From IMG/VR virus record IMGVR_UViG_3300042517_000805, positions 1-64,000 of that record: 64,000 bases of DNA; one strand, 5' to 3'. This stretch comes from a virus. A program made the translations under genes and the position numbers. Every line of letters starts with the position of its first letter. The stretch's first letter is position 1. Below are positions 23,218 through 64,000 of the stretch, piece by piece. The notes beneath the pieces are model-generated. The model searched no databases. It saw only the letters and a program-made list of their open reading frames with translations, and was not told the origin of the DNA.

Positions 23218-25231
23218 AAACGTAGCTTTCGACAATGCATGGCTCGGATTAGGAGACCTATCGACTCTGTCGATTGATAGTAATCCTATGATTCATAGAA
23301 ACGAACTGGATATAGAAAATCCAGATTTGCATTTAATGAAACTACTAAGAAACCCAAAGTATATTGGAGGCACATGTAAACTGTTGTTCGGTATAGAATT
23401 ACATCCAATACAGATGACTATTCTTCAAGAACTATGGATTAGACCATTTCCTATGTATATTGCTAGTCGTGGGTGGGGTAAAAGTTTCTTGCTAGCCCTA
23501 TACTGTGTTGTCAGAATGACATTTTATCCAGGAACAAAAATAGTAGTAGTTGGTGCTGCTTTTCGTCAAAGTAAAATCATTTTTGAATACATGGAAACTA
23601 TATGGCGTAGTAGTCCCATATTAAGAAGTATTTTTGGCGGTGGGGATGATGGTCCTCGTCGAGATGTTGATAGATGCACAATGAGATTAGGAGATAGTTG
23701 GACAGTAGCCATTCCCATGGGTGACGGAAGTAAAATCAGAGGACTAAGAGCACATATTATTATTGCAGACGAATTTGCCTCTATATCTCCAGATATTTAT
23801 GAAACCGTAGTCTCTGGATTCGCAGCAGTATCGGCTAGTCCAATACAGAACGTAAAAGAAGAAGCCAAAAAAGCAGCGATGGTTGAGGCTGGATTATGGA
23901 ATACTGAGCTAGAAGCACTCAATGTTAAGATGGGCAATCAGGCCATTATATCAGGAACAGCAGATTACGCATTCAAGCACTTTGCATCATATTGGAAAAG
24001 ATATAAAGCGATTATAGAGAGTAAGGGGGATGCTAAAAAACTAGAAGAAATTTTTAAAGGAGAAGTTCCTAGTAATTTTAATTGGAAAGACTATAGTATC
24101 ATTAGAATGCCATATGAGCTAATACCCAAAGGATTTATGGATGATAAACAGGTTTCAAGAGCTAAGGCTACTATTCATAGCGGTATTTATAATATGGAAT
24201 ATGCTGCCTGCTTTGTTAGTGATAGTGAAGGATTCTTTAGAAGGAGCTTGATAGAAAATTGTGTCGTATCTAATAACAATATCATAATAGACAGTAAGCC
24301 AATTAAATTTTCAGCAGCAATTAACGGTGATCCTAATAAGCAATATATCTATGGTATTGACCCAGCATCCGAACAAGACAATTTCAGTATAGTAATACTA
24401 GAGGTTAATCCCACACATTCGCGTATAGTCTATTGCTGGACAACAAATCGTGCTAATTTTAAGGAAAGACAAAAAATAGGCTTGGTTACTGAACATGATT
24501 TTTATGGATTCTGTTGTAGAAAAATTCGTAATTTAATGAAGACCTTTACTCCTATACGAATCGGTATGGATGCTCAGGGTGGTGGTGTCGCTATTGAAGA
24601 AGGACTACATGATCCTTTAAAAATAGATGGCGGAGAGCATCTAATATGGCCGGTGATAGATGATAACAAATCTAAAGATACTGATGATCAAACTGGATTG
24701 CATATTTTAGAGCTGGTTCAATTTGCCAAAGCAGAATGGACTAGTCAGGCTAATCATGGTATGAGAAAAGACTTTGAGGATAAAGTATTACTATTTCCAG
24801 AATTTGACAACTTAACCCTTGGTTTGGCATTAGAACAAGAAAATAAAAATATTATCAGCACCGACCTAAGTGCCGCCTTATATGATAGTTTAAGTGAATG
24901 TATTTTAGAGATAGAAGAGCTTAAAAATGAATTAACAACTATTGTTATGACACAAACAAGTAATAACGCCAACGCCAGAGACAGATGGGATACTCCTGAA
25001 ACTAAACTATCTCATGGAAAAAAGGGCCGATTAAGAAAAGATAGATATAGTGCCTTATTAATTGCCAATATGTTAGCTCGTCAAATTAATAGAGCCCTTA
25101 AGCCAGTAGACTATGATGTGATTGGTGCAGATGCTCGTAATTCCGTAAAAAGTGATGGAAAGTTATATAAGGGTCCAGATTGGTTTGTATCTGGCGCCAA
25201 TGATGATATTTATACGGGAATTTATAGATAA
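23210..25231 (+). CDS. terL: Large terminase subunit
   Basis: 673 residues. ATPase: Walker A SRGWGKS (86-92), Walker B IIIADE (183-188, catalytic Glu188). Nuclease: YGIDPASEQDN near 380 with the first acidic residue of the RNase H-like fold, then GMDAQGGG at about 453. Motor that pumps DNA into the prohead and cuts it. Overlaps the ERCC4 gene by 8 nt. Followed by a candidate late promoter and an endonuclease gene before the portal. Confidence 0.95.
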   Translation: MSKNVAFDNAWLGLGDLSTLSIDSNPMIHRNELDIENPDLHLMKLLRNPKYIGGTCKLLFGIELHPIQMTILQELWIRPFPMYIASRGWGKSFLLALYCVVRMTFYPGTKIVVVGAAFRQSKIIFEYMETIWRSSPILRSIFGGGDDGPRRDVDRCTMRLGDSWTVAIPMGDGSKIRGLRAHIIIADEFASISPDIYETVVSGFAAVSASPIQNVKEEAKKAAMVEAGLWNTELEALNVKMGNQAIISGTADYAFKHFASYWKRYKAIIESKGDAKKLEEIFKGEVPSNFNWKDYSIIRMPYELIPKGFMDDKQVSRAKATIHSGIYNMEYAACFVSDSEGFFRRSLIENCVVSNNNIIIDSKPIKFSAAINGDPNKQYIYGIDPASEQDNFSIVILEVNPTHSRIVYCWTTNRANFKERQKIGLVTEHDFYGFCCRKIRNLMKTFTPIRIGMDAQGGGVAIEEGLHDPLKIDGGEHLIWPVIDDNKSKDTDDQTGLHILELVQFAKAEWTSQANHGMRKDFEDKVLLFPEFDNLTLGLALEQENKNIISTDLSAALYDSLSECILEIEELKNELTTIVMTQTSNNANARDRWDTPETKLSHGKKGRLRKDRYSALLIANMLARQINRALKPVDYDVIGADARNSVKSDGKLYKGPDWFVSGANDDIYTGIYR

Positions 25232-35818: not shown

Positions 35819-36505
35819 ATGGCCGTAAATGATCTGATCACATTTCGCAAAGGGACAGCTTCAGCATGGACTTCTGCTAATCCAGTATTAGCTAGTGGTG
35901 AGCCAGGATACGATCTGACCAATAAAATTTTTAAAATTGGGGACGGAGCATCCAACTGGACTAGTTTAGGTAGTATAAACCTAGCTTCATCTAATATAAC
36001 AGATTTTAATAGTAGTGTGAGTGGACTATTACCAGTAACTAATATTGTGGCCGGATCTGGTATTACAATATCTTCTTCTAATGCAATCTACACCATAAAT
36101 TCTACAGCAACAGGAGGAACACCTTCTCCTACTGGGAATTTCGTGGTTGAATCTTTACACGTATCTAATAGATATACGGAAACGGTTTCAGCTATCAGTA
36201 TTTCATCAAATACCCTAGTTATAAATCTAGATACTTGTAATTTATTTAACTGTGCTCTTAATTCCAATATCAACACTCTTACCATATCAAATGTTCCGTC
36301 AACTTCTGGAGTCTCTATTGGTTTTACTATTATTTTTACAGCAGACGGAACGCCAAGAAGTGTATCCTGGCCTAATAGCGTGAAGTGGCAAGCTGGCACG
36401 GCTCCTAACATAACTAGCGTAAATGGTAAAATAGACACATTTAGCTTTTTATCAGTGAACAACGGAACTTCGTGGCTAGGCTTTGTTGGAGGGCAGAATT
36501 ACTAA
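35819..36505 (+). CDS. Tail fibre protein with Mtd-type N-terminal domain (228 aa)
   Basis: Residues 5-50 (LITFRKGTASAWTSANPVLA...KIFKIGDGASNWTSLGSINL) are the same anchor domain as in 31975, followed by the same TDFNSSVSGLLPV unit. The remaining 130 residues form a beta-rich tip (SISSNTLVINLDTCNLFNCA, GFTIIFTADGTPRSVSWPNS) seen in many fibre tips. Overlaps the next gene start (TAATG). Confidence 0.8.
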   Translation: MAVNDLITFRKGTASAWTSANPVLASGEPGYDLTNKIFKIGDGASNWTSLGSINLASSNITDFNSSVSGLLPVTNIVAGSGITISSSNAIYTINSTATGGTPSPTGNFVVESLHVSNRYTETVSAISISSNTLVINLDTCNLFNCALNSNINTLTISNVPSTSGVSIGFTIIFTADGTPRSVSWPNSVKWQAGTAPNITSVNGKIDTFSFLSVNNGTSWLGFVGGQNY

Positions 36506-38727
36506 TGTTTAGTGGCATGTCCTATAAAATAGCCAGTAGATCCAGTAAGTCTTCTGCTGGGTTTAATATGCTTATTGCGGGGGAATTTGATTCCATGCAA
36601 CTGCCATGCTCTAGTTTAGTTAGATTTGACTCTAACACAGTTAACTCAGAGCCAGATTTTTCTTTTTCTGTTGCCATGGGAAGCGGATTTGATAGTTCTG
36701 TAACCGCTATCGCTATTCAAAGTGACGACAAAATAATATGCGGCGGAACTTTCACCTCTTACAACGGAACAACAAGAAATAGAATAATTCGCTTGAACGT
36801 AGATGGAAGTTTGGATTCTTCTTTTAATGTTGGTACTGGATTTAATATTAATGTAAATGCTATTGCTATTCAGAGTGACGGAAAAATAATATGCGGAGGA
36901 ACTTTCACCTCTTACAACGGAACAACAATAAATAGAATAATTCGCTTGAACGTAGATGGAAGTTTGGATTCTTCTTTTAATGTTGGCATCGGATTTTCCA
37001 GCACGGTAAACTCTATCGCTATTCAGAGTGACGGCAAAATAATATGCGGAGGAACTTTCACCTCTTACAACGGAACAACAAGAAATAGGATAGTTCGCCT
37101 CAACTCTGATGGCTCGCTAGATTCTACTTTTAGCGTGGGTAGCGGGTTCAACGCCGGTACGGTAAACTCTATCGCTATTCAAAGTGACGGCAAAATAATA
37201 TGCGGAGGAACTTTCACCTCTTACAACGGAACAACAAGAAATAGGATAGTTCGCCTCAACTCTGATGGCTCGCTAGATTCTACTTTTAGCGTGGGTAGCG
37301 GGTTCAACACCGGTACGGTAAACTCTATCGCTATTCAAAGTGACGACAAAATAATATGCGGCGGAACTTTCACCTCTTACAACGGAACAACAAGAAATAG
37401 AATAATTCGCTTGAACGTAGATGGAAGTTTGGATTCTTCTTTTAATGTTGGCATCGGATTTTCCAGCACGGTAAACTCTATCGCTATTCAGAGTGACGGC
37501 AAAATAATATGCGGCGGAGGTTTTGGCTCTTATAACGGAACTATGCTAAGAAGAGTAGTTAGATTAAATTCAGACGGAAATTTGGATTTGACTTTTTTTC
37601 CTGGGCCTGACTTTGGGCTCAGTAACACCGTTAATAGAATAGTTATTCAAAGTGACGGTAAAATAATATTTGGAGGAACTTTTACTAGTTTTTCATTTGG
37701 TTATTATTATGGTATTTATAGCATTAATTCTTATGGGATTAGAAATTATTATTACAGTCATGTTGAGATTTCTTCTGTTTATGCTTTAGTTAGACAGGTT
37801 GATGGTAAGATAGTATGTGGAGGATCTTTCGAGAGCTACAATATCGGTCTTAGTACTGCATATGTTTTTGGCATTGTTCGTTTTAACTCTGATGGAATTG
37901 TAGATTCTTCTTTTAACGCCGGTAGTGGACTTGATATCAACAATGGCGGCCAGATATTGAGTTTGGCTATTCAAAGTGATGGAAAAATAATATGTGCAGG
38001 AGGTTTTTCTACTTTTAATGGAATATCCAGAGAAGATATAGTGCGTCTCAATCCTGACGGCAGCGTAGACAGTTCTTTTAATTGTTTATTGTCTAGTGTT
38101 TTGAGCACGATATATAAAGTTGTTATTCAAAGTGATGGAAAAATAATCATAGGTGGAAATTTTACAAAATGTGTTGCTCGTCTCAACAATGATGGAACTA
38201 TAGACTCTTTTTTTAATGTGGGAAGCGGATTTAATGAGGTGGTGAATGATATAGCTATTCAAAGCGATGGTAAAATAATATGTGTCGGAAGCTTCACCTC
38301 TTACAACGGGACAACAAGAAATAACATAATTCGCTTGAACGTAGATGGAAGTTTAGATTCTTCTTTTAATGTTGGAACTGGATTTAATGATTCTGTAAAC
38401 ACCATCGCTATTCAAAGTGATGGAAAAATAATGTGCGGAGGCTTCTTCAGTAGTTACAATGGAGTAGCAAGAAATAGAATAATTCGCTTGAACGTAGATG
38501 GAAGTTTAGATTCTTCTTTTAATGTTGGAACTGGATTTAATGATTCTGTAAACACCATCGCTATTCAAAGTGATGGAAAAATAATGTGCGGAGGCAACTT
38601 CTCTAGTTATAATGAAACTTCTAGGAATAAGATAGCTAGGCTAAACTCTGATGGATCTCTGGACGCAAACTTTATAATTTCAGCATCTGCAAGTTCTGGC
38701 CCTGCGCAAAGGATCATATTATTATAA
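36505..38727 (+). CDS. Delta-60 repeat beta-propeller virion protein (740 aa)
   Basis: Start at 36505 (MFSGMSYKIASRSSKSSAGF) with RBS GGAGGGC. It contains about a dozen delta-60 repeats of roughly 55 residues, each with AIQSDGKIICGGTFTSYNGT-like and RLNxDGSLDSSFNVGxGF-like parts, forming one or two beta-propellers. Several repeats are almost identical at the DNA level. There is no signal peptide and it is cotranscribed with fibres, so a virion surface or receptor-binding role is likely. Confidence 0.85.
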   Translation: MFSGMSYKIASRSSKSSAGFNMLIAGEFDSMQLPCSSLVRFDSNTVNSEPDFSFSVAMGSGFDSSVTAIAIQSDDKIICGGTFTSYNGTTRNRIIRLNVDGSLDSSFNVGTGFNINVNAIAIQSDGKIICGGTFTSYNGTTINRIIRLNVDGSLDSSFNVGIGFSSTVNSIAIQSDGKIICGGTFTSYNGTTRNRIVRLNSDGSLDSTFSVGSGFNAGTVNSIAIQSDGKIICGGTFTSYNGTTRNRIVRLNSDGSLDSTFSVGSGFNTGTVNSIAIQSDDKIICGGTFTSYNGTTRNRIIRLNVDGSLDSSFNVGIGFSSTVNSIAIQSDGKIICGGGFGSYNGTMLRRVVRLNSDGNLDLTFFPGPDFGLSNTVNRIVIQSDGKIIFGGTFTSFSFGYYYGIYSINSYGIRNYYYSHVEISSVYALVRQVDGKIVCGGSFESYNIGLSTAYVFGIVRFNSDGIVDSSFNAGSGLDINNGGQILSLAIQSDGKIICAGGFSTFNGISREDIVRLNPDGSVDSSFNCLLSSVLSTIYKVVIQSDGKIIIGGNFTKCVARLNNDGTIDSFFNVGSGFNEVVNDIAIQSDGKIICVGSFTSYNGTTRNNIIRLNVDGSLDSSFNVGTGFNDSVNTIAIQSDGKIMCGGFFSSYNGVARNRIIRLNVDGSLDSSFNVGTGFNDSVNTIAIQSDGKIMCGGNFSSYNETSRNKIARLNSDGSLDANFIISASASSGPAQRIILL
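36700..38600 (+). repeat. Tandem near-identical DNA repeats inside the propeller gene
   Basis: The gene at 36505 carries tandem units of about 156-165 bp. Units around 37010-37170 and 37170-37330 differ by only a few bases, as do those around 36860-37010 and 37340-37500, and the pair 38330-38460 and 38460-38590. Other repeats have diverged. This mix suggests recent duplication or gene conversion among repeats. Confidence 0.85.
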
Positions 38728-40069: not shown

Positions 40070-41077
40070 ATGCCAGCTGCTAATTACAATTTTATCATAG
40101 AACAAGGTTCTGATTTCGTATTAAATTTTCAATATAATGATCAGGAGAATAGGCCTATTGATTTAAGCTCCAAGTGTATAGTTTTACAATGGCTTACTGA
40201 CGATGGGGCTAGTAAAGAGGTTTTTTCTAGTGGTGCTAATGCAAATTATGATATTAATGACTGGTCTATGGTTGGAGATAATACTGGATCTATTAGATTT
40301 AGACTAGCAGCAAATAGAACAAAAGATTTTGTATTTAATACTGCTGTTTATGATTTAGATATTATTACTGTTGGAGATAAACTACGAAACATAAGACTGG
40401 CTACCGGAGTTATTACTTTAGCAAAAAGAAACATCGGATTAGACTCTTGTCCAGTTAATTCTGATCCTAGTATAGATTTAACTACTCCAACAGTTACTAT
40501 TCCAGGTACTACTCCTGGTATAACGCCAACTCCAACCATAACATCTGGTCAAGTTGAAGATTTGTGTTTACCAGAAGATTGTTTAAATCTAGATATATAC
40601 TCAGTAGTATATACTGGTAGTGGATTAAATATACCAGATCTAGCAACAGTAAGCGGTTCTGTTATTACTACTGATACAAGAGAGATAGAGAATATAGAGA
40701 TAGCAATCAATAAGCTTCAGCACAATAGCCCATCCGATTTATGGTTGATGCTGAGTCCTCCTTCCGGAGACACGGTATTATTATCTGCTAATAGTAAAAT
40801 ACCGTCATTTAATAATAATTTTAGCTTTATGTTCTCAAACAAAGCTAATCCTTCAGGATATTTGCATAATATATCTAATGGTGGATTGGCTAATATATAT
40901 CCTAAAACTGATATTATAAACTATAGCGATGAAACTTTAGTATCTGGTTTTGGACAGCTCTTAGGCACTTCTGTAACTGGAGTCTGGAATCTCATAGTCA
41001 AAGACACAGACCCAATAGGATCAGGACTAATAGATTCTTGGAAACTAATAATAACATACGCAGCCCTATCAGAGTAA
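40070..41077 (+). CDS. Virion protein: adaptor domain fused to proprotein-convertase P-domain (335 aa)
   Basis: Residues 1-125 (MPAANYNFIIEQGSDFVLNF...) are paralogous to the protein at 31323. A Thr/Pro-rich linker (about 138-165) follows. Residues about 175-335 match a P/Homo B domain: IENIEIAINKLQHNSPSDLW, LMLSPPSGDTVLLS, GVWNLIVKDTDPIGSGLIDSW and KLIITY. P-domains normally follow subtilisin-type protease domains; here the domain is on a virion protein, likely as a carbohydrate- or surface-binding module. Confidence 0.75.
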   Translation: MPAANYNFIIEQGSDFVLNFQYNDQENRPIDLSSKCIVLQWLTDDGASKEVFSSGANANYDINDWSMVGDNTGSIRFRLAANRTKDFVFNTAVYDLDIITVGDKLRNIRLATGVITLAKRNIGLDSCPVNSDPSIDLTTPTVTIPGTTPGITPTPTITSGQVEDLCLPEDCLNLDIYSVVYTGSGLNIPDLATVSGSVITTDTREIENIEIAINKLQHNSPSDLWLMLSPPSGDTVLLSANSKIPSFNNNFSFMFSNKANPSGYLHNISNGGLANIYPKTDIINYSDETLVSGFGQLLGTSVTGVWNLIVKDTDPIGSGLIDSWKLIITYAALSE

Positions 41078-50409: not shown

Positions 50410-53400
50410 ATGGCTACAGCTTTTAATTTGACAGCACAACTTAATTTACGCGGTCCAAATAATGTTAACAAGATTGTTGGAGACATTAAGAAACAACTAT
50501 CTGGCATAACTGCTAATGTTAACTTGAAGTTGGACCCTAATGTTGCCAAGAACGTTAAGGCTCTTGATGCTTCGTTAAAATCGTTAAATTCTACATTATC
50601 TAGAACCTCTACGACAGCAACTTCTGCAGCATCTGCGATATCTTCTTTTGGTAGGGCTGTTAATTCTGTTAGCATAAAAAACATACCGTCACAAATTAAT
50701 GCCACGGTATCTAGTATGAATAAGCTAAATAAATCTAGCGGAACCATTGGACAGTCTTTGAATGAAGCAGCAACGGAGATGCAGGAGTTCGGTAAACAAG
50801 CAGGATTAGCAATTAGACGATTTGCTGCATTTACTGCTGTTACTGGAGTTATTTATAGTTTAACTAATAGTATTAATCAGGGTATTCAGGCTTTTATAGA
50901 ATATGACAAAGAATTAGTTCGTTTACAACAAGTCACAGGTCAAACTGCCGGAGGCTTAAAGCAACTACAAAATTCAATTTCTCAATTAGCAACTGGTTTG
51001 GGTGTTAGTTCAAAAGAATTAACAACAGTATCAGTTACACTAGCACAAGCCGGTTTAAGTGCAAAAGATACCGAAAGAGCCTTAAGAGCATTAGCATTAA
51101 GTTCACTAGCCCCATCATTTGACGACATGAATGAAACGGTAGAAGGTTCTATTGCTTTGATGAGACAGTTCGGCATTAGTGCTGGACAATTAGAACAAGC
51201 CCTAGGTTCTGTCAACGCTGTTGCTGCTGCGTTCGCCGTAGAAGCCGATGACCTAATTACTGCTATTCAGCGTACCGGCGGTGTGTTTGCTACTGCTAGT
51301 AAAGGCGTTAGTGAAGGAACAGATGCTCTTAATGAATTTATCTCGGTGTTTACTAGCGTGAGAGCAACCACTCGTGAAAGTGCAGAAACTATTGCTACTG
51401 GTTTACGTACTATCTTTACACGTATTCAGAGAGGTAGCACAATTGATGCCCTTAAGGAGTTCGGTGTTACTCTAACAGACTCAGAGGGCAAATTCGTTGG
51501 AGCCTATAGAGCCGTACAATTACTAAGTGAAGGATTGTCTAAACTAGATCCAAGAGATATTAAATTTTCTAGAATTGTAGAAGAGTTGGGCGGCTTTAGG
51601 CAGATTGGTAAAGTTATTCCTCTTATCCAACAGTTTTCTGTTGCTCAGAACGCTCTTAAGATAGCACAAACAGGACAATCTTCTTTAGCTAAAGATGCAG
51701 CAACAGCACAATTGTCATTAGCAAATCAAATTCAAAAAGTTCGTGAAGAATTCTTTGCGCTGTTTCGTGAAATTGGACAAAGCAAAGGCTTTCAATCCTT
51801 ACTCACTGGAGTATTAACACTAACAAGAGGACTAATCAAGCTTGCTGATGTTTCAAAGAGTTTGCTACCTGCGTTGAGTGTCGTTTTAGCATTTAAGGGT
51901 GCTAGTGCTTTAACTCAATTTGCTAGCGGTTTCAGCAAGGGTTTCAGGCCGGGTGGTGGTAAACCAGAAAAAGAAAGACCACGATTCGCAGACGGCGGAA
52001 GGGTTAGAAGATTTGCTACTGGTGGTGTAGTGCCCGGTAGTGGTGACAGAGATACTGTTCCAGCTATGCTAACTCCTGGTGAGTTTGTGGTGAGAAAACA
52101 AGCAGTTAAAAGTATTGGAACAGCACATCTACATAGAATAAATAAGCGAGCTAAGGGTGGCCCAATTACAGTAGAAAAATTAAAAGATATTAATCCCAAT
52201 GCTGTTCAGCCTGACTATAGAAATACAGAAGAAGCAAAAAATAAAGTAGGAGAAAAAGACCAAACTTGGAGCACATACAGAGATCAAGGCAGGAGAGGGA
52301 AGGTCAGGTCAACAGCTGTTAAATATATGCAGCCAAGAGACGAAGTATACGGAGATGTAGAATACGTACCTATTCCTGATCCTAATAGGTCAGAAGTTGA
52401 AAAATATTTTGGCAAGATAGTTCTTAAAAAAGGAATTAAGTCTATCAATCCAAAAGATAAGAGAATAAGTACTGCTTATGAAAATTATGCTCAGGATAAA
52501 GTAAAAACAATAGGAGCTCGGTATAGTGGAGATTATGATCCTTTAGATTTTGAAACCGGAGATGTTAAATTCTATAGTTCTGAAGAAAATATTCAAAAAT
52601 ATGTTTCGATAAATAAAGTTCTTTCAAAAAGACTCAGACATCAAAATAAAGATAATAGAATTAAATGGCAACCAAACTCTCCAGAACAAAAAGAGTTAGA
52701 GCCAACAACAATATATCATCCAACAGACTTAACGGAAAATAATAATTTAAAGAAAAGAATTTCAGACTGGATTTTATTATCACAAAATCAAAGAACAACT
52801 CAGGCGATTAGAGAGGGTGACTCTTTTAGTTTTGGTGGATTAGTTCAAAAATTTGCCGAAGGAGGAGAGGCTGCTAGGATTAGGAGAGTTGGAATTATAG
52901 ATAGTGACGTATTGCGAGATAAGATTAACGCTGAAAAAGTTGCTCAAGGAATGGAGTCAATCGGATCAGATAGTATACAAGACTATACCATACAACTAGC
53001 CAAGCTAGGCGTACAAAAAAGAAAGTCTGGTGACCTCAAAAAGTTTAGAGTTATTGCTGGAGCTGCTGGTAGTGGAAAGAGCAGCTTAGCTACTGGAGTA
53101 TCTGCTAATGATAACGCTACTTTGCGAAAAACTATTAGATCTCATATTATAACTCCACAAGATCTGGATAGTGTAGATGAAATTTTAACTATCACAGCAA
53201 ATGTTAGTGATGCAAAATTAGAGGGCTATCTTAGAGATGCAGATAGAACATATACCGTCTCATCCTCTACTAAGGCCGAGCAAGATCTAATAAAAAGAAA
53301 TAAAGAATCCAGAGACATCACTGGACAAGGACTTTACGGCAGAGAACCAGGGAAAACAAAGGGCGTTCCTGCAGATTTTGGAGTAGAAGAAGCAACACTA

Positions 53401-56400
53401 ATCGATCAACTAGGATCAAAAAATGTTGTACTAGGAAGAAAAGAAGATGCTGAAGGTAATCTTACAAATAGATTTAGAAGAAAAAGAGAAGATGAATTAC
53501 CAGAAATAGTACAAGCAGAAGGCTTCTATACTGGTGGTTTTGCTCCTCCAACAAGAGGTCACAGAGGCGCTTTTGATACATTGCTAGCAAATGTAATTGC
53601 CAAAAATCCAAAGGCAACACTAAAAGATATTTTGGTTTCAGTAGCTCCTAATGTTGCGATGGTCGAAGGAAAAGAAGGACTAGAGCACGCTGCTAGATAT
53701 GGTATTTTTGATGCTGATTTTAGATCATTATTAGCAGATGTAAACTTTAAAGGAGCTATGATCTCTCAGGATGCACAGTCTACTCCTGGAATACTTCCCA
53801 AGGTTATGGAAGTTCCTAGCGAAAACAATCGTAGAAAATTTGCTCGACTCAAAGGAGCGATGGCTATTACTTCCGGAAAAGAACAGGGAGTTTTAGGAAA
53901 ATACGAGAGAGCAGGAATTGAGGTTACTGACATTCCAAGAATAGAGGATATTAGTGCTACTAAAGTAAGAGAATTATTATTTAGTCAAAATTATACTGAA
54001 CTTGATAAAATAGTTAATCCTGAAGTTGGGGCAATACTTAAAGGTAATCAACCACAGCTTAAAAATAGATCAGTAATGGTTCCTGTTTTATTAGAAGAGC
54101 TTCATAAAGCAGCCGAAGCTAATACTGTTTTAGCTAACCAAAAAGCAGATGATATACTTGCTAATGCTCCTGGCGGTCCATATGCTAATGTTAGTAAAAA
54201 ATTAAAAACAGAACACCCAGATATTGCAGCACAAGTTAAGTCTATTAGAGAACAAAGAGATCAGTTTAAGAAGTCTATTTCTGGAGCTAAAGCCCATTCT
54301 ATTATTAGTGAATTAGCAGCTGCCTATCCTGAAATTTATGGTATTGATCCTTCTCGTAGAGCAGCAACAGCAGCCGCTAGCATATCAGCAGAAGACGCTA
54401 GGTCTCATCTAGGAGATAGAGTAAAATCGCTAGTGTCAGGAAGAGGCGCAGCAACTCCAGAACCTTCTCTGCTAGAGAGTATCAAGCAAAATGTTACCAA
54501 ACAATTAGCAATTCCAAAGGGTTCAGGTACTTTACCCACAGACTCTAAGACAATTACTAGCGCCTTCTTAAATACCAAGATACCGTCTGATCCAACATTC
54601 GGTATGTTTTCAGGCAAGACTATAGATCCTGGTATAGTAAAGAAAGTTTGGAGACAAACATATCCAGGACTATCAGAAGATAAGACAGCAAGCTATATTG
54701 CTTTAAAAGAATGGCTAGAAGCACAATATAATACTCGTACCGGCGCCAAAACTGAAAAACTGTCTCAGGCCATTCAAGAATCTAAAATGGTTGGATTGGT
54801 TGGTATGCTACCAATCGGACACGAAAAACTATCTGGCCCATTTACATGGATGCTGGGTAAAAATGCTGCTGGCGAGGATGTTTCCGTTACTGCTTCAATT
54901 ATAGAAAGAGGATTGGGCAAACAATACGAGGAAGAGATTAAAAAAGCACAGAGTCACGCTGAACAAGGATCAGAACTTCTAGCTTCTGGACTAGCGTCTA
55001 AGATGAAAAAACGACCAGAGTCTTTAAGATCTCTTGATAAAGCTCAGCTTGAAACTTTAGGTCAGGGAAATATTGAAGGAGCATATGTTGAACAGGCATT
55101 AGCCAGACTATGGGCCAATTTAGACAATGTTAGTACCAGAACTCGACCAATAGACTACCCAGACGGTCTCGGAGAATCTGCTGAACTATTTCCTGGCATA
55201 TCTCCAACTATGCCGACAGAAGTTAAGAGAACAATTAATAGTGATAGTAGAAGTGATGCCATAGAAGAATTCCAAAGGTATTTCAGACTTATTCATGCAA
55301 TACCAGAACCAAAAGCCAAGAAAGAAGCAGTTAAAGCATTAGCTTCAGGCGGAGAAGTACAAAGATTCATGGCTGGTGGAGTAGCAACCAAAACCAGAAA
55401 ACCAAAAGAAGTTTTTGGAACTGGAGAAACAGCATTCCCATCAAGAATATCAAAAAAATATGCCGAAGAACAACATTCAGCTAGTGAAAGCTTAAGAGCT
55501 AAATTATCATGGGATAAGTATCCTAAAGATGAAAGAATAATGGTTAACGAAGATAAGGTACAAGAAGCCTATCAACAACCATTTGATAGAGATAGGTTTA
55601 CCTCATCATTTAAAGAAAAAATTAGTCGTGACTCGCTCTTTGAGAGAATGTCAGATTTTGCTAAGTTTATAGGACTGCCACAAGAAGACTTATCTCTAGC
55701 ACTACCATTACAATTGGATTTTGGAGCAAGCTCAAGAGGGGGTGGGTTGGGAATGTTCTCTGCTGCTGAATTCGGAAAAGGAGCATCTGGAATTAGGCCA
55801 TATGAAGGCTATGATCTATCTAAATTTGGATATGGAGAAAAAGAAAAGCAAGAATCTTATGGATTAGAAAAACTTATAGCAGCAAAAGAAAAAGAAATAA
55901 AAAAGATTAGAAAAACTCCTACTGAAACTTTTGATGATGGTAGTTTCTCTTTTGACAGTGAGGCATTTCAGAAGACTTATATTGAGTTAGATAATCTTAA
56001 AAATAGATTTTTTAGATTAAAAGACCTAAAACGTGAAGCAGAAAAGGCGGCCCTTGCTGAACAAAATACCATTTCCTCAGCTACTGGTCGTGGAACCATC
56101 GGCTTTGCTCCTTCTATGGGATATGCTTCCACCACACAGAATCACTCGCTATATCATGAAATGACACATCAGCTATTTGAAGGATTAAGAACAAGATCAG
56201 CAGAAAGCTTTACTAAATATAGAGATAGAGTATCGTCTTTATTCTCTGGAGATAATGACGATTTAGCAGATGCTTTTGACTCTTTAACGGCAGTAACAGC
56301 AGGCGGCGGATATACTAGTGCTGATGTTGTATATGGTAGAAGTTATAAGTCAAATAACTTAAGTCAAATACTTTCAAGCTATTATCGTCAGAATCTTGAT

Positions 56401-59400
56401 TCTTCTAGGGGCACTACTCCTATTCCTGAAGATATAACAAAAAATCTTGCTAGTTTAAGTACTCAAAGTACAGCTGCTAAAAGAGCTAGAGAGTATAGGC
56501 CAATAAATCCTCAAGTTAACGAAGCTTTACTTCAAGGAGGTGCTAAGTTTGGAATGACTCAAGAGAAGATTAATAGAATGGAAGATAATGGTAAAGAAGA
56601 ATTCTTAACAACTTTAATAGAAAAAGCTCCTCAGCTTGATCAAAATTTACAAGGGATTTTAGATTCTACCTTAACAGAACTATTAAGTGGTGCTGGAATT
56701 CAAAGACAAAAATATGCTTCAGGAGGCAAAGCTTCAAGAAGAGTAGACTTTGAAGCCGGAGTAGGGCAGTCACCATTCGGAGGTTCGGTATCAAAAAGAT
56801 TAAGTCAATCCATTTACAATCTGCAAAAGAACACCGGACTAAGTGATTCAGAATTCAATGAAATTAAAAAGACGGCAGATACATACGGATACAATGAAGA
56901 AGAATTTAAAGAATATTTAGCAAAAAGAATACAAGAGAAGAAGAACAAAGAGGGGTTAAGAACTAATCCATCAGCACTAGCACAGCAGTTGATGCCACAA
57001 ACAAGGGTGTCAACACCTAGACAGCTAGCATTAGCACAAGCATTAAAAGACACCTCTAATGATATCGGATATAGACCATCTACTTTAGAAACAATAGCTC
57101 AAGCAAGAACAGACGTTGGTAACGCTACTAGATATGCCGTCGGCGGTATTGCTAAAGTTGGCAAGAAGGAAGACAAACAGTACGGTCAAATTAGCATCAC
57201 TGAAGACGCCGGAATGATTAATGTTGGATATCAAAAGGGTGATAATAGACAAGGATATGCTACTGGTTACAAGATGAGGAATAATCTATATTATGTTGGA
57301 TTGTCTAAAGCGACAAAAGGCTATGGACCAAGATTGTATGACGTACTGATGGAAGCTGTAACAGAAAAGGGCGCCATGCTGACATCCGATAGGTCATCAG
57401 TCAGTGAGGATGCAAAACGAGTATGGGAATATTATTTTAAAAATAGGGGTGATGTTAAGAAAACTCCACTTAAACCATCTGATTGGACTGTTAATTCGAA
57501 TTTAATAGATCCAAAACTTTACGGCAAAAAAGAAACTTGGCCCCCAGCAACTGATCCAGCTTGGACATTACAGACAGGTTATAGTAAATCTCCTAAATTA
57601 ATAACTAATACTAATGAGGTTATAAGAAAGAGATCAGGTGGTCGCCTTAGTTTTGAAACTGGTGGCACTGTTCCAGCTTTAGTTAGTAATGGAGAAGCTT
57701 ATATTCCTCCTAAGATTGCTAAAAGAATTGGTTATAGTAATCTTAATCGTATGAATCAAGCTGACCGTAACGGAATGAGCAAGTTCTCTAGTGGTGGTAT
57801 TAGTGTGTTTAAAGGCCCTGGTACCGGTACTAGCGATAGCATTCCTGCTAATTTGCCAGTTGGTAGTTTTATTCTTAGAGAGAAAGCTACTAAGGCTTTG
57901 GGTTTTAATAAAGGAGGTGCTGTACCAGCACAAAGATTTGCTACTGGAGGTGGCGTAACAAGCATGATTATGGAATGGCTGTCATCAGACATGACTGCTA
58001 GAACCAAACCCAAAATGGCTCCAAGACCTGATGTTGTAAACAGGGCGAGTGTTGTTGCTTCTAATGATACCACCAAAGCTTTAGATATTCTTGTTAAATC
58101 TCTTAATCAATTAGGTTTAAGTGCTGCTAATTCTGCAGATATTTTAAATAAGGGTGGGCAAGTTAGTTATAAAACTATACAAAAGGCTTTAGCTGAAGAT
58201 ATTAAAAGATTAAAAATTTCAGGAGCAAGCATACAAAGCATAGTTGCAGCAGAAACTACACTTGCTAATATTCGTAAAAAGAGTAAAGAAGAAGTTACTA
58301 AACAAAAAAATATACAAGGATTAACCAGTGCTAGAGGCAACTCTTCTACTAAGATTGTTGGAGGTCAAACAATTGGGGACCTACAAGCTGGTTCTGGTGC
58401 TGGACAACAAGCAATAGAGACACAAGCCCAGATGCTTGCTGCAGCAAGAATCAGAAGAAGAGGAGGAAAGGTAACAGAAAAACAACGATCTGAAATAATG
58501 GAATCATCGTACATTGATTCTGCTTCTAGAATTACTGGAATTAAAAAGAAAGAATTTAAAGCTGCTGGAATTAGTGGTGGAGATATTCAAAAATATATAG
58601 CTGAATCCATGAAGGATCGCAAGAGCTTGGCGCAGATGGATAAGCAGCTAATAGCACTCAAAACTAATGAGTTGACGAATAGCGCTGCCTACATAGCCGC
58701 CTCTAACGCAGAACAAAAAAGAATGTTGACAGAAGTTCAACAAGCAACGAAAGAAGAAATATCAACTCGCAGAAAGATTATCAACGATCTAGCTGCTCAA
58801 AATGGAACTAAGGGAGTTGGTGCTGCTGGGTTGAGAGATACTAGAAATAGTCCCATACTTAATCAGATAAAAGGATTTATAAAATCTCCTGGTAAAGTGA
58901 TGGGTGGAATATCTGCTGCTGCTGGACTAACTGCTGGTGCTTCTGATATGATTGCGAAAAATATTTATAATATGAGCACAACAGAAGGCCAAGGTAAAGC
59001 AGCAAAAACATCAGCAGCTATTCAATCTTCTGGTACAATTCTTAGCACCGGAATGGCAGCAGCATCACAGATGGCAGCTATACCAGTTATTGGTCCCTAT
59101 GTTGCTGCTCTTACTGCTGTTGGAACAGCTGCTGCGGCTGCTGCTGATTATTTTTATGATTTTACCGGTGCTCAAAAGGCTGCCACAGTAGAATTTGAAA
59201 GATCAGTAAGAGCTAAAGAAATTGGAATTGCTATGGATGGTTTGGATAGAGCATTCCAAAATTTTGAAAAAGATATGGGTAATATAACCTTACAAAAGGC
59301 TCTAGAACAAGCTATTGGTAATACTTCTTCTTTACAAATTAAAGATAATATGGCAGAAAGAGATAATGCCAAAGCAGAGTTTTCTCTAAAGAATAGAAGT

Positions 59401-62400
59401 TGGTCGGATATTTTTAGTGGTAACTTTAAGGGTTCTGCGCAGATGGATGCTCTTGAACAAGGAGCTATGGATAGTGAAATGTCTCAAAAATTATCGCCAA
59501 TATCCGATAAGGCTATGGCGTTATATGATAAACAAATTAGTAGCGGAAAAAGTATAGAAGATATTGTTAATAATGTTCGCACAGGAAATAAAGACGCTGT
59601 TAATGCTGGCGCTGCCGTTGCTTTTAATGCTAATCCCAAATTGTGGTCAGAGTTAGAACAAAAGGTTAAAGCATCAGGAGACGCTTCAGAAGCTAATGTT
59701 CTGAAGATTAAACGAGGAATTGTTGCTAGAGAACTCTTAACCAATGCAGAATTACAAGCAGCTGTAAAGAGATCCAAATTAGAAAGAGATATGGAGGCTT
59801 CTAATAGAGCTGGTCGTAGATTAGCTGAGACTTTTGATCATATAAGTGAAACTATTGATCAGTCAATTCAGAGAATGCAACGAGAGTCTGAAATTCGTCA
59901 AGCACAAGCTAATGACAGAGTAGAAGCTAGAAGAGGAAATGCCGGTTTTGATGAAAGAGCTGTTAATAATAGAAACGTTGGAGTATTAACAAATCCAAAA
60001 GCATACCAAAATGATCCTAGACGCATAGAAGAAGCTATTAGAGCAGGAAGCAGTGGTATGTCCCCAGAGCTTGCTCAAAAAATGGCTGGCGGAGCTAGAC
60101 TAGAAGCTACTTTGCCTAATGTAATGAGAAATGCGATATCTACAGAACTTAAGAGTAATGCTAGTTTAGGTCTTGATGAAGCAGCTGATGCTGCCAGAAG
60201 AAAGGGAACAGAAGCGATTAGAAATTCTGGATTATCAGAAGCTGATCAAAAAGTTGCTATAGATAAATTAAACGCAAGAATAGAAGATGAAAAAAAGAAA
60301 GTACAAGATAATGAAAAGGGAACCCCAGCAGAACAAGTTGATTCTTTTACTGACTCTATAAGTGATCTTGGTCCAGAAATAGCTAATATATTTGGTAATG
60401 CAGGCAAAAAATTAGATGATATTATCCAAGCCAGACAAGGAATCTATGATACTTTTGCAAAGAATCTTCAAGCCGCTTCAGAAGCTGCTAAAAAAGCACG
60501 AGAATTTTTCAGTAAAGCAAGAGATATAAGATATGACGCTGGAATGGACTTGAGAGAAGCCCAAACTGGCGTAGGAGAAAGCTTCTCTGAGGCAAAAGCT
60601 AAATCTGATAGTAGTATTGCAAGATTAACTGGCGGGGTTACTGATCCTCAAGCTATTGGTAGAAATATTGATGCTTTAATGGCACGGCGTGACCAGCAAA
60701 TGAAGGATAGGGATGCTGCACTATCAAATCCCAATTTAACACAAGATCAACAGAAAGATGCTGCGACTAAATTTGCTAAAGATATTCAGGCTACTAATAA
60801 TGCATTAAACGATAATAGAGAAGCATTAGACAAGTTGGCTAATAGCGCTGAAGTAGCGCAAAAAGCTCTAGACGAAGTTAAGAATATTAGAGGATTACAA
60901 CAAGATAGAGAAAACTTTGTTAATCAATTGCTTACAAACACTCCAGAAGAAGCAGACAAACTTAATCAAACCTTTATTAGACTTCAGCGCAACTTGTCTG
61001 GTGGATTAAATAATGCCTCTAATCAAAGAGATGCCCGCAATGCTTTTAATGATACATTACGTCGCACAGGAAATCTGAGAGAAGCTACTCGCGCCGGAAA
61101 TACTGTATTAGCAGACCAAAGAAAACAAACCCTTCAGTTGATGCAAGATCCTGGATTTAGGGGCATGATGACCCTTAATATGAAGAACCAGGGAATGAAT
61201 GATCAACAGATAGACAAGCGATTCAGAGACCAAGAAGGTATGTTGATGCAGCAAATGGCTATTGAGAGTGGATTGATCAATAATCCAATGGTTAGACAAG
61301 CCCTTGCTGCAAAACAAGACCCTAATGCTGATCCGGCCATGAAACGTGCTGCCGATCAATTCTTGCAGGCCACTGGTTTACAGGCCAAAGCTTCTGAGGA
61401 ACAAGGTCGATTAGAATTAGCTAATGTACAGAACTTGCTCGTAACAGCTACCGACGAATTAAGAATGTCTATAGATACCTTAACAACAACCATTAATGGT
61501 TCGTTGGGTAAAGATGGAGAAAGAGTTCCCGGTGTTGCTGGGCCTGTGGTTCCTGTTCCAGCCGGGGCCAGAGGGGTGGCGAGACCACCTCGTCCCATGG
61601 CTACTGGTGGAAAAGTTAAGACTCAGTATGCTAGTACTGGTCAATTAATAGACTTTTCTCCCAAGGGGACTGATACTGTTCCTGCCATGTTAACTCCTGG
61701 AGAATTTGTTGTTAATGCCAGATCGACCGCCAAACATCTACCATTACTAAAAGCTATTAATAGTGGGGCTGGAGTTGATGCTACTTCTAACATGAGTAAA
61801 GGTGGAGTTGTTTATTTGGATAATGGTGGATTAATAGACGAGTTTAGAAAAATAGATGCTAATAAATCCAATTTTTTAGAAGTTGGCGAAATAGATCTTA
61901 AAATGATTCAATTATTAGATAGAGATAAAGATAATAAAGTTTCCTTTGGAGAATATTCTTCAAGAGTAAAGAGCGATGGTAGTAGTGGATCTTCAAGATC
62001 TGGTTCAGGATCATCGGTTAAGAGTGGATTTAAAGCTCAAGATATGAGTTTTGAACAGTACTATAATAATAGAGCACAAAAATATGCAAAAAGATATCAA
62101 GGTACTGGAGACGAAGTACCAAGAGACACAGATAAATTCGCTAACGGAGGTATGGTTACTCCATATTATTTAGCAGAAGGAACAAATAGACCGCTATCAC
62201 GACCCGTTATGGTAGCACTACCTCCCAAAAAAGATCCTATTGAGACTGCAAGAGCTGCTCGTAAACAAGGAGTACCAACTAAGAGAAGGCCATCTTTAGT
62301 TCCTGGAGATCCTAGAGCAAAAGATGCTGAACCTAGCTTTTTTAGATTAGACCTCAATGAAGACGGTATTTTGGACAGAAAAGAAGGATATCCATACCAA

Positions 62401-64000
62401 GACTTAGATAAAGATAAAGATGGAAATATAACACAAGAGGAATGGAAAAATAATGTATTAGCACGAGCAAAGGTTCGTAAGCTAGAAAATACCATAAAAA
62501 TAATTGAAAAAGAAATAGCTGAAGGAAAACCTGTTCCTGTAAACTTTGAAGCAATGAAAAGAACACTAGGTTTCGCCAAAATAGATGCAGGTATGGCCGC
62601 TGCTCCTGGTGACAATAAGGCTTTTATCGCTAGACAAAAACGTATTGATGATAATATGAATAAAAGATTATTGGGGGGTGGTTCTATTAATAATCCTGAT
62701 GGTTCTTATGTTTTTAATAGAGAACTTAATAAGATTTATGATCGTAGATCAGCTTTTGAAGAAGAAAGAAGAGCACAGAGAGCTAAGGACGAAAACGCAA
62801 CGGACGAAGAAATATTTGATCGCACAGTAGAGGCCTATGGGGCTGGAGACTCTAACTATTGGCGCAACAGTATGGGAGTCACCGAACTGCCAAATGTTTA
62901 TGATAATTCTAGAACTTTAGACGTTATTCGCAATGAGAGTGATCTCTCCAGTAAGGGAGATCCTAATGGAGAAAAAACTAGAGCATATATAGACGGATAT
63001 ATACAATCACAAGGAGCAAGACAACAAGCGGACAGAGTGGCTCGTGGTATTGGGGCAGAGATTGATTCTCCAGATATTGCCGTAACAGGAACTCAGGGAC
63101 CAGTAGATAATCTTAACTATTTAATAGACCAAAAAGAAAAGGGCAGAGTAGCAGAAAAAGCAGCAAGAGACGAAAACTTTAAACAAGAGAATAAAAATAG
63201 AGAAGGCGCTGATGCAAGACAGGCAAAATTGGATCAAAGAGATAAAGAACTAGGTATAGATACTAGCGGCATTAATCGAGATATATATGAGAGTGGTGGA
63301 GGTTTTTCAAATCAGCCAGGAAGTGGCAGAAAAGTTACGATAGAAGAACAAAAACAAAGAAAAAGAGAAAAGGCTATAGCTGCTAGGTTTTCATTTACAG
63401 ATAAAACAGGTAAATACTCCACTACTGGAACTATTGACAAAGTGGATTTTGAAAAAGGTACTGTTAGAATAGCTAAAATTGATCCAAAAACTGGTGAGCC
63501 TATTACTAGAACCGTTCCGGTTTTTGCCGATGGCCAAACAGAAGAAGAGATTAAAGCTTCTGGTAGAGATCCCGAAAGATTTAAGGTTGGAGAGAAAGAA
63601 GAACAAGTATACACTACTGTACCCCTAGACAAACTTAGTGACCAGTCCAGAGACAAGGCCAGATCCCATGGTTTGGAAAAAGAAGCAGACAAAGCCAAGG
63701 CTGGTGAAAACTTCTCAATAGGGGAGGCTACTGGCAAAAAGCGTACAATATCTGGTAAAATATTCAGAGTAGACGAAAAGGCCGGAACAGCTGTCGTACA
63801 AAGAGATAGTGGTAAGCTGGTCACTATACCATTAGAGAAACTTGCTCCAGAGTCTAGAAATATAGCACTAGATCAAGCCAAGACAGCTACTACTGTTACT
63901 GATTTAACGCAGAAACAAATGGATGCTGATGTTGGTAATATTGATGTTACTTCATCATTACCAGAACCACCAATTCCATTAGCTGAAGACTTTACTGATA
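50410..64000 (+). CDS. Giant multidomain tape-measure protein, 3' end beyond the window
   Basis: One frame is open from the ATG at 50410 to the last base: 4,530 codons, no stop. Residues about 110-500 are a typical tape-measure core (AGLAIRRFAAFTAVTG, FRQIGKVIPLIQQFSVAQNA). Further domains in order: P-loop GAAGSGKS (884-891); HIGH-family nucleotidyltransferase (GGFAPPTRGH 1042-1051, ISATKVR 1181-1187); HEMTH peptidase motif (1916-1920); GNAT-like domain (about 2255-2340, SKATKGYGPRLYDVL); hydrophobic stretch (about 2878-2912); coiled coils; EF-hands (about 3840 and 3980-4010); two SHD1-like repeats (about 4330-4400, 4430-4490). DTVPAMLTPGEFV occurs at 548-560 and again near 3756. The protein sets tail length and probably delivers enzymes into the cell. 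The function of each inserted domain is inferred from motifs. Confidence 0.9.
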   Translation, partial: MATAFNLTAQLNLRGPNNVNKIVGDIKKQLSGITANVNLKLDPNVAKNVKALDASLKSLNSTLSRTSTTATSAASAISSFGRAVNSVSIKNIPSQINATVSSMNKLNKSSGTIGQSLNEAATEMQEFGKQAGLAIRRFAAFTAVTGVIYSLTNSINQGIQAFIEYDKELVRLQQVTGQTAGGLKQLQNSISQLATGLGVSSKELTTVSVTLAQAGLSAKDTERALRALALSSLAPSFDDMNETVEGSIALMRQFGISAGQLEQALGSVNAVAAAFAVEADDLITAIQRTGGVFATASKGVSEGTDALNEFISVFTSVRATTRESAETIATGLRTIFTRIQRGSTIDALKEFGVTLTDSEGKFVGAYRAVQLLSEGLSKLDPRDIKFSRIVEELGGFRQIGKVIPLIQQFSVAQNALKIAQTGQSSLAKDAATAQLSLANQIQKVREEFFALFREIGQSKGFQSLLTGVLTLTRGLIKLADVSKSLLPALSVVLAFKGASALTQFASGFSKGFRPGGGKPEKERPRFADGGRVRRFATGGVVPGSGDRDTVPAMLTPGEFVVRKQAVKSIGTAHLHRINKRAKGGPITVEKLKDINPNAVQPDYRNTEEAKNKVGEKDQTWSTYRDQGRRGKVRSTAVKYMQPRDEVYGDVEYVPIPDPNRSEVEKYFGKIVLKKGIKSINPKDKRISTAYENYAQDKVKTIGARYSGDYDPLDFETGDVKFYSSEENIQKYVSINKVLSKRLRHQNKDNRIKWQPNSPEQKELEPTTIYHPTDLTENNNLKKRISDWILLSQNQRTTQAIREGDSFSFGGLVQKFAEGGEAARIRRVGIIDSDVLRDKINAEKVAQGMESIGSDSIQDYTIQLAKLGVQKRKSGDLKKFRVIAGAAGSGKSSLATGVSANDNATLRKTIRSHIITPQDLDSVDEILTITANVSDAKLEGYLRDADRTYTVSSSTKAEQDLIKRNKESRDITGQGLYGREPGKTKGVPADFGVEEATLIDQLGSKNVVLGRKEDAEGNLTNRFRRKREDELPEIVQAEGFYTGGFAPPTRGHRGAFDTLLANVIAKNPKATLKDILVSVAPNVAMVEGKEGLEHAARYGIFDADFRSLLADVNFKGAMISQDAQSTPGILPKVMEVPSENNRRKFARLKGAMAITSGKEQGVLGKYERAGIEVTDIPRIEDISATKVRELLFSQNYTELDKIVNPEVGAILKGNQPQLKNRSVMVPVLLEELHKAAEANTVLANQKADDILANAPGGPYANVSKKLKTEHPDIAAQVKSIREQRDQFKKSISGAKAHSIISELAAAYPEIYGIDPSRRAATAAASISAEDARSHLGDRVKSLVSGRGAATPEPSLLESIKQNVTKQLAIPKGSGTLPTDSKTITSAFLNTKIPSDPTFGMFSGKTIDPGIVKKVWRQTYPGLSEDKTASYIALKEWLEAQYNTRTGAKTEKLSQAIQESKMVGLVGMLPIGHEKLSGPFTWMLGKNAAGEDVSVTASIIERGLGKQYEEEIKKAQSHAEQGSELLASGLASKMKKRPESLRSLDKAQLETLGQGNIEGAYVEQALARLWANLDNVSTRTRPIDYPDGLGESAELFPGISPTMPTEVKRTINSDSRSDAIEEFQRYFRLIHAIPEPKAKKEAVKALASGGEVQRFMAGGVATKTRKPKEVFGTGETAFPSRISKKYAEEQHSASESLRAKLSWDKYPKDERIMVNEDKVQEAYQQPFDRDRFTSSFKEKISRDSLFERMSDFAKFIGLPQEDLSLALPLQLDFGASSRGGGLGMFSAAEFGKGASGIRPYEGYDLSKFGYGEKEKQESYGLEKLIAAKEKEIKKIRKTPTETFDDGSFSFDSEAFQKTYIELDNLKNRFFRLKDLKREAEKAALAEQNTISSATGRGTIGFAPSMGYASTTQNHSLYHEMTHQLFEGLRTRSAESFTKYRDRVSSLFSGDNDDLADAFDSLTAVTAGGGYTSADVVYGRSYKSNNLSQILSSYYRQNLDSSRGTTPIPEDITKNLASLSTQSTAAKRAREYRPINPQVNEALLQGGAKFGMTQEKINRMEDNGKEEFLTTLIEKAPQLDQNLQGILDSTLTELLSGAGIQRQKYASGGKASRRVDFEAGVGQSPFGGSVSKRLSQSIYNLQKNTGLSDSEFNEIKKTADTYGYNEEEFKEYLAKRIQEKKNKEGLRTNPSALAQQLMPQTRVSTPRQLALAQALKDTSNDIGYRPSTLETIAQARTDVGNATRYAVGGIAKVGKKEDKQYGQISITEDAGMINVGYQKGDNRQGYATGYKMRNNLYYVGLSKATKGYGPRLYDVLMEAVTEKGAMLTSDRSSVSEDAKRVWEYYFKNRGDVKKTPLKPSDWTVNSNLIDPKLYGKKETWPPATDPAWTLQTGYSKSPKLITNTNEVIRKRSGGRLSFETGGTVPALVSNGEAYIPPKIAKRIGYSNLNRMNQADRNGMSKFSSGGISVFKGPGTGTSDSIPANLPVGSFILREKATKALGFNKGGAVPAQRFATGGGVTSMIMEWLSSDMTARTKPKMAPRPDVVNRASVVASNDTTKALDILVKSLNQLGLSAANSADILNKGGQVSYKTIQKALAEDIKRLKISGASIQSIVAAETTLANIRKKSKEEVTKQKNIQGLTSARGNSSTKIVGGQTIGDLQAGSGAGQQAIETQAQMLAAARIRRRGGKVTEKQRSEIMESSYIDSASRITGIKKKEFKAAGISGGDIQKYIAESMKDRKSLAQMDKQLIALKTNELTNSAAYIAASNAEQKRMLTEVQQATKEEISTRRKIINDLAAQNGTKGVGAAGLRDTRNSPILNQIKGFIKSPGKVMGGISAAAGLTAGASDMIAKNIYNMSTTEGQGKAAKTSAAIQSSGTILSTGMAAASQMAAIPVIGPYVAALTAVGTAAAAAADYFYDFTGAQKAATVEFERSVRAKEIGIAMDGLDRAFQNFEKDMGNITLQKALEQAIGNTSSLQIKDNMAERDNAKAEFSLKNRSWSDIFSGNFKGSAQMDALEQGAMDSEMSQKLSPISDKAMALYDKQISSGKSIEDIVNNVRTGNKDAVNAGAAVAFNANPKLWSELEQKVKASGDASEANVLKIKRGIVARELLTNAELQAAVKRSKLERDMEASNRAGRRLAETFDHISETIDQSIQRMQRESEIRQAQANDRVEARRGNAGFDERAVNNRNVGVLTNPKAYQNDPRRIEEAIRAGSSGMSPELAQKMAGGARLEATLPNVMRNAISTELKSNASLGLDEAADAARRKGTEAIRNSGLSEADQKVAIDKLNARIEDEKKKVQDNEKGTPAEQVDSFTDSISDLGPEIANIFGNAGKKLDDIIQARQGIYDTFAKNLQAASEAAKKAREFFSKARDIRYDAGMDLREAQTGVGESFSEAKAKSDSSIARLTGGVTDPQAIGRNIDALMARRDQQMKDRDAALSNPNLTQDQQKDAATKFAKDIQATNNALNDNREALDKLANSAEVAQKALDEVKNIRGLQQDRENFVNQLLTNTPEEADKLNQTFIRLQRNLSGGLNNASNQRDARNAFNDTLRRTGNLREATRAGNTVLADQRKQTLQLMQDPGFRGMMTLNMKNQGMNDQQIDKRFRDQEGMLMQQMAIESGLINNPMVRQALAAKQDPNADPAMKRAADQFLQATGLQAKASEEQGRLELANVQNLLVTATDELRMSIDTLTTTINGSLGKDGERVPGVAGPVVPVPAGARGVARPPRPMATGGKVKTQYASTGQLIDFSPKGTDTVPAMLTPGEFVVNARSTAKHLPLLKAINSGAGVDATSNMSKGGVVYLDNGGLIDEFRKIDANKSNFLEVGEIDLKMIQLLDRDKDNKVSFGEYSSRVKSDGSSGSSRSGSGSSVKSGFKAQDMSFEQYYNNRAQKYAKRYQGTGDEVPRDTDKFANGGMVTPYYLAEGTNRPLSRPVMVALPPKKDPIETARAARKQGVPTKRRPSLVPGDPRAKDAEPSFFRLDLNEDGILDRKEGYPYQDLDKDKDGNITQEEWKNNVLARAKVRKLENTIKIIEKEIAEGKPVPVNFEAMKRTLGFAKIDAGMAAAPGDNKAFIARQKRIDDNMNKRLLGGGSINNPDGSYVFNRELNKIYDRRSAFEEERRAQRAKDENATDEEIFDRTVEAYGAGDSNYWRNSMGVTELPNVYDNSRTLDVIRNESDLSSKGDPNGEKTRAYIDGYIQSQGARQQADRVARGIGAEIDSPDIAVTGTQGPVDNLNYLIDQKEKGRVAEKAARDENFKQENKNREGADARQAKLDQRDKELGIDTSGINRDIYESGGGFSNQPGSGRKVTIEEQKQRKREKAIAARFSFTDKTGKYSTTGTIDKVDFEKGTVRIAKIDPKTGEPITRTVPVFADGQTEEEIKASGRDPERFKVGEKEEQVYTTVPLDKLSDQSRDKARSHGLEKEADKAKAGENFSIGEATGKKRTISGKIFRVDEKAGTAVVQRDSGKLVTIPLEKLAPESRNIALDQAKTATTVTDLTQKQMDADVGNIDVTSSLPEPPIPLAEDFTD

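Follow-up and report, generated by a model that had tools for sequence, protein, structure and literature searches.

Tape measure proteins (TMPs) with embedded peptidoglycan hydrolases are known, and the one proven case of a TMP-fused enzyme that we know of is the RNA polymerase of the Thermus phage P23-45. The gp96 protein of this phage is a 5,002-aa TMP with an N-terminal virion RNA polymerase that is active in vitro and has been detected in virions within the full-size protein; gp96 also has metallopeptidase and transmembrane regions (PMC10770324). The original prediction for the locus described here, made from the sequence alone, named embedded peptidoglycan hydrolases as known in TMPs; with this polymerase, any view that no other TMP enzymes are known has to be qualified. 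The polyvalent proteins of phages and conjugative elements are likewise large and multidomain and are thought to be injected; zincins are their commonest domains and have been proposed to process the chain, and GNATs occur (Iyer et al. 2017, PMC5512222). Sle1-type effectors, from actinobacterial contractile injection systems, have a TMP-related modular architecture with diverse functional domains and are packaged in a tail-like particle (PMC13277306), and YomI of SPbeta-like phages, annotated as a TMP or a transglycosylase, is a TMP with catalytic inserts.

We analysed a window of 64,000 nucleotides (positions 1 to 64,000 of the IMG/VR virus record IMGVR_UViG_3300042517_000805, 107,144 bp long) that contains part of the gene for a giant TMP. 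Like gp96, its product is a giant TMP with fused enzyme-like domains; unlike gp96, with its single N-terminal RNA polymerase (PMC10770324), it carries several such domains, as exchangeable cassettes, C-terminal to a PF10145 core, and no RNA polymerase was recognised among the Pfam and PHROG matches. It shares with polyvalent proteins a large multidomain form, zincin- and GNAT-type domains and shuffled architectures, but its carrier is a tape measure, the word 'tape' being absent from the text of Iyer et al. 2017, and the passages of that account consulted hold no counterpart of its HIGH nucleotidyltransferase and P-loop set (PMC5512222). The Sle1-type effectors resemble it in modular architecture and differ in belonging to a contractile injection system of bacteria instead of a phage tail, and in having different domains (PMC13277306). 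YomI, which the core resembles at 24% over residues 80–451, differs in that the enzymes carried by TMPs of its type are wall hydrolases and do not depend on nucleotides or acetyl-CoA. P23-45 is the one known case of a TMP with virion enzyme cargo; of the multi-enzyme, recombining cassette form our search of open-licence papers found no report. We consider it likely that this TMP is a chassis for exchangeable enzyme cargo, most probably housed in the tail, entering ahead of the DNA and acting in the host.

A giant tape-measure frame and its neighbourhood

The frame starts at 50410 on the plus strand and is open through the window end at 64000 (Table 1). In the parent record it reaches a stop at 69774, giving one 6454-aa frame (50410..69774) whose last 1,924 residues lie outside the window and were invisible to the original prediction. 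Another IMG/VR record (3300042386_001233, 243.8 kb) is a 100% match to the same sequence over the compared regions, and a 6560-aa homologue is present in identical form in two further records (G002 and G003); the longest homologues found have 7577 and 7737 aa. The original prediction named a fusion of separate genes by sequencing errors as a condition that would refute it. The frame is continuous in G000, G002/G003, G005, G006, G007, G009 and others, and none of the homologues found has an internal stop; because it is unbroken at 6.0–7.7 kaa in these related assemblies it is not a sequencing artefact, and we discarded joined genes or a frameshift as having virtually no probability. Rulers of about 6,000–7,700 aa with shuffled enzyme-like domains are made by a family of uncultured giant phages. 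The 7,737-aa stop-to-stop frame of this family (G007:C1:136790-160000, minus strand) has its core start duplicated (residues 5–139) before the full core.

The tape-measure core claimed from the sequence alone was borne out by the PF10145 match (E 9e-21) and by four PHROG tape-measure families that match residues 28–511 (E 2e-21 to 9e-12), and this core resembles TMPs of Rhodococcus, Bacillus SPbeta-like and other phages at 22–31%. Upstream of the gene stand a terminase (TerL), a portal and a PHROG major-tail-protein match, and around it fn3/FGE-sulfatase/propeller and fibre-like proteins. The core domain and the position in the structural gene block identify the protein as a tail tape measure, from a giant tailed phage that is uncultured. 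A search of five of the genomes for a contractile sheath (PF04984) gave no match.

At least four virion-region proteins have FGE-sulfatase domains, some with fn3 or DUF285 in addition (window 33698–35722; record 69795–73304, 82182–85934 and 86382–87932); folds of this type are often receptor-binding variable proteins. A diversity-generating retroelement was considered for these several domains and dropped, as searches of G000, G001 and G002 revealed no reverse transcriptase. The window also encodes a 751-aa protein upstream of the tape measure with DUF5122 beta-propeller repeats (36472–38727; E 4e-173, 12 stretches), an ORF that holds a proprotein-convertase P-domain (40070–41077) and, on the opposite strand, a subtilase (9539–11146; Peptidase_S8, E 3e-48).

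Table 1. Features of the giant TMP within the window
Feature	Residues	Position in window	Strand	Basis or remark
Giant tape-measure ORF, part in window		50410..64000	+	Unbroken homologues of 5,989–7,737 aa
TMP core	1–580	50410..52149	+	PhageMin_Tail PF10145 at 188–382 (50971–51555); PHROG
Hinge repeat 1 (GG..VPGSGDRDTVPAMLTPGEFVV)	525–592	51982..52185	+	Start of cargo block 1
P-loop kinase-like domain	813–1000	52846..53409	+	GAAGSGKS at 53059–53082 (884–891)
HIGH-superfamily nucleotidyltransferase	about 1005–1250	53422..54159	+	PPTRGH at 53545–53562 (1046–1051); ISATKVR at 53950–53970 (1181–1187)
PD-(D/E)XK-like domain (tentative)	1535–1634	55012..55311	+	GxxxE ... D ... (E/D)xK; motif only
Zincin-like HExxH domain	1663–2103	55396..56718	+	HEMTH at 56155–56169 (1916–1920); ED.GK.EFLTT at 2058–2068
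GNAT-like acetyltransferase domain	2254–2406	57169..57627	+	GYGPRLY loop; Foldseek
Hinge repeats 2a/2b	about 2409–2510	57634..57939	+	End of cargo block 1
Segment taken as tape proper	~1,200 aa	57967..61584	+	Hydrophobic segment at 2888–2911
Hinge repeat 3	3730–3800	61597..61809	+	Repeat match
EF-hands, variable C-terminal block 2	3831–3851 and 3998–4014	61900..62451	+	Pfam

Domains of the cargo block, tape and C-terminal block

Blocks of the protein are often separated by a hinge repeat of the pattern GG...DTVPAMLTPGEFVV, which follows the core and, in most TMPs, also cargo block 1 and the tape. Cargo block 1 itself (residues 813–2406) lies between the TMP core and the helical tape. The motifs GAAGSGKS, PPTRGH, ISATKVR and HEMTH and the GNAT-like loop GYGPRLY are present as first described, and relatives retain the motif residues (21–24 sequences). 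We regard the cargo motifs as beyond chance because their key residues are invariant in 24/24 sequences (P-loop, HIGH and ISxTxxR) or 21/21 (HE..H and ED.GK.EFLTT). Structure prediction divided the proposed enzymes, favouring the nucleotidyltransferase and the GNAT domain, giving moderate agreement for the kinase and returning no structural match for the zinc peptidase. Of the three refuting conditions set in the original prediction (absent folds, catalytic residues missing from relatives, and joined genes), none held when examined.

In the kinase-like domain all 24 sequences keep the first G and the GK of Walker A, which is preceded by an invariant DxD and followed by LRxTxR. The structure model of this domain matches zeta-toxin kinase (Foldseek probability 0.89, E 0.01), and its PDB profile matches are chiefly to the Walker A of UvrA and a gluconate-kinase-like protein; the assignment as a kinase is of moderate strength. 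In the adjoining nucleotidyltransferase the P..GH of HIGH and the S.T..R of ISxTxxR show the same 24/24 invariance, and T stands at the first position of the HxGH-type motif, as it does in some HIGH-superfamily members. The AlphaFold model of this domain (pLDDT mostly 70–94) has NadM and PPAT as its top Foldseek matches (probability 1.00), with human NMNAT among the best, and also matches phage cytidyltransferase-like and citrate-lyase-ligase proteins. Moreover, PF01467 (CTP_transf_like) gives a whole-profile match at the same place in G005, G006 and G009 (E 7e-5 to 7e-4, slightly below the curated cut-off). The nucleotidyltransferase fold is supported by these models and profiles.

A conserved PD-(D/E)XK-like element downstream had been overlooked in the original prediction. 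Its D and K are invariant in 25/25 sequences and its E is conserved in at least 90%, the model of the region has a pLDDT of about 53–85, and a PDB profile search with the alignment gave no credible relative; we assign it tentatively, from its motif. Some relatives carry in addition a HAD-like domain (DFDxT ... (T/S)AR ... K ... DD), absent from the window, in which DFD and AR are invariant in 18 relatives and T, K and DD are present in most; no credible relative emerged from a PDB profile search with their alignment.

With regard to the HExxH domain, a third zinc ligand would be E2058 or E2064. Neither profile nor fold searches gave a PDB match, and the model is mostly helical, so that the domain has the motif pattern of a zincin but its zincin fold is unsupported and it is not a proven zincin. 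For the GNAT domain, in which the GYGP loop is conserved, a PDB profile search found no credible relative; in Foldseek the model matched HP0935 best (probability 0.99, E 0.08), with PseH and SACOL1063 next and no E-value below 0.08, and the GNAT fold is supported.

The tape, measured from hinge to hinge, is about 1,200–1,300 aa long in the close clade and variable elsewhere. A ruler of constant length was therefore not retained, the lengths being only partly regular (mean 1150, sd 300, with missed hinges distorting some values). Block 2, from the third hinge at about residue 3730 to the C-terminus, shows greater variability between relatives. Of the features predicted for it, the EF-hands pass the Pfam threshold in a scan restricted to the segment (EF-hand_5, E 7e-10), and the SHD1-like repeats gave no SHD1 match in the Pfam scans. 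Extra HExxH motifs occur in this variable block in G005 (residues 6926–6931, HEAGHH) and G007 (residues 6787–6791, HELGH), and the G005 block has a weak DUF6782 match.

Conservation and exchange of the cargo domains

In all but its closest relative, the block from the kinase to the PD-(D/E)XK-like element is 23–51% identical to the window copy, and the motif residues are still invariant. The dN/dS ratio is 0.13–0.19 for the G000/G002 cargo, 0.14–0.25 for other cargo pairs and 0.06–0.13 for cores, the core values depending on near-saturated synonymous sites; cargo and core are both under purifying selection. These data bear on an explanation in which the domains serve envelope penetration only, as structural or envelope-modifying parts with enzyme folds co-opted as scaffolds. 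Embedded wall hydrolases and the presence of hydrophobic segments agree with such a role, which we nevertheless hold to be highly improbable: motif residues stay invariant while the remainder drops to about 30% identity, and the predicted cofactors, ATP and acetyl-CoA, are cytoplasmic.

Our domain map covers 38 distinct TMP sequences or fragments, among which the presence, absence and order of the KIN_NT, HAD, PD-(D/E)XK, PEPT and GNAT domains differ. PEPT precedes KIN in G009, G010 and others, PD precedes KIN in L063/L064, HAD follows PD in G009 and L050, and GNAT precedes PEPT in L117/L118. All cargo loci that were mapped belong to ORFs of 1,726 aa or more, and in every case where the contig extends far enough a TMP core precedes the cargo.

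Cargo and core also have different histories. G000 and G002 are 86% identical in amino acids in the kinase–PD block versus 65% in their cores, and dS between them is about 0.6 in the kinase block, 0.4 in the peptidase and 2.4 in the core. G000 groups with G005 and G006 in the core tree and with G002 in the KIN_NT tree; despite the core grouping, its kinase/nucleotidyltransferase is about one-third identical to those of G005/G006. G009 and L047 have near-identical cores, and their KIN_NT domains fall into different clades. For KIN_NT, the groupings G000+G005+G006 (p 7e-13) and G009+L047 (p 3e-97) are rejected by AU tests, as is G000+G002 for the core (p 4e-24); since the groups were picked after viewing the trees these p-values are optimistic, though the log-likelihood gaps are large (97–592 units). 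Cargo domains have been lost, reordered and exchanged among related phages by recombination.

In cultured phages, tblastn with the whole cargo block gave one short match, on the hinge. A cellular origin of the cargo was considered and set aside, as two seed-based scans of prokaryote genomes (with peptidase and kinase/nucleotidyltransferase alignments), limited by their seed patterns, found no relative.

Proposed delivery of the cargo and other possible roles

The conservation of active-site residues in shuffled domains suggests that the ruler also brings enzymes into the bacterium. The P-loop kinase-like, HIGH nucleotidyltransferase, PD-(D/E)XK-like, zincin-like peptidase and GNAT domains, which follow the conserved core and come before the tape proper, would most likely be packaged in the tail, leave it with the tape measure before the DNA and enter the new host. 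There they may modify nucleotides, nucleic acids or proteins, in order to defeat defences or take over metabolism, and the zincin may cleave the cargo off the tape. In well-studied siphophages the N-terminus of the TMP lies at the end away from the tail tip, an arrangement in which block 1 should follow the C-terminal block into the cell. Against delivery, the folded domains may not fit inside the tail lumen.

The domains could instead act in the infected cell during tail building, the zincin processing the TMP and the others modifying the tail or keeping the TMP soluble, and then be removed or be inert in the virion. The HExxH domain is indeed widespread, being found in 23 of the mapped proteins, the cargo adjoins hinge repeats that could be cleaved, and a role in processing multidomain phage proteins has been proposed for metallopeptidases (PMC5512222). 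We nonetheless judge a role in assembly or maturation improbable, as tail assembly offers no obvious task for a nucleotidyltransferase or an acetyltransferase, a shuffled and exchanged repertoire is unlike assembly factors, and the TMP-fused enzyme of P23-45 occurs in virions within the full-size TMP (PMC10770324).

If the cargo is delivered, the tail would act as a syringe already loaded with effectors, a counterpart to the polyvalent proteins packaged in heads and to the effectors of contractile injection systems, and would be a possible source of counter-defence enzymes; how folded domains pass through the tail tube then becomes a physical question. Across the mapped giant TMPs, some 38 sequences or fragments, enzyme-like domains are swapped in the manner of cassettes. 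It is possible, though we lean against it, that these TMPs form a general platform for effector delivery, in which hinge-separated nucleotidyltransferase, kinase, phosphatase, nuclease-like and acetyltransferase cassettes are exchanged between phages, packed in the tail, released by a protease built into the TMP and active in the host before phage gene expression.

A narrower form of delivery would have the virion kinase and an NMN adenylyltransferase restore NAD under NAD-depleting defences. The domain resembles NadR and NadM in its HIGH nucleotidyltransferase fold and motifs and, recalling the pairing in NadR, adjoins a kinase-like domain; it differs in its low identity, in not standing alone and in domain order, the kinase-like domain preceding the nucleotidyltransferase in the giant TMP, the reverse of the usual NadR order. 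NadM and human NMNAT are among its best Foldseek matches, its PDB profile matches include NMN adenylyltransferases such as NadR (E 0.03–0.34), and NadR as carried by phages consists of a nucleotidyltransferase and a P-loop kinase (PMC9503650). We consider this specific role unlikely, given that PPAT and citrate-lyase-ligase fit about equally and the best PDB profile match is MJ0951, that NAPRTase, which would support NAD salvage, was not found in six genomes, and that PD-(D/E)XK-like and HAD-like partners suit nucleic-acid end processing equally.

Small stand-alone CTP_transf_like nucleotidyltransferases are encoded elsewhere in G007 (85645–85929, minus strand) and G009 (24058–24366, plus strand), in open frames of 148 and 151 aa.
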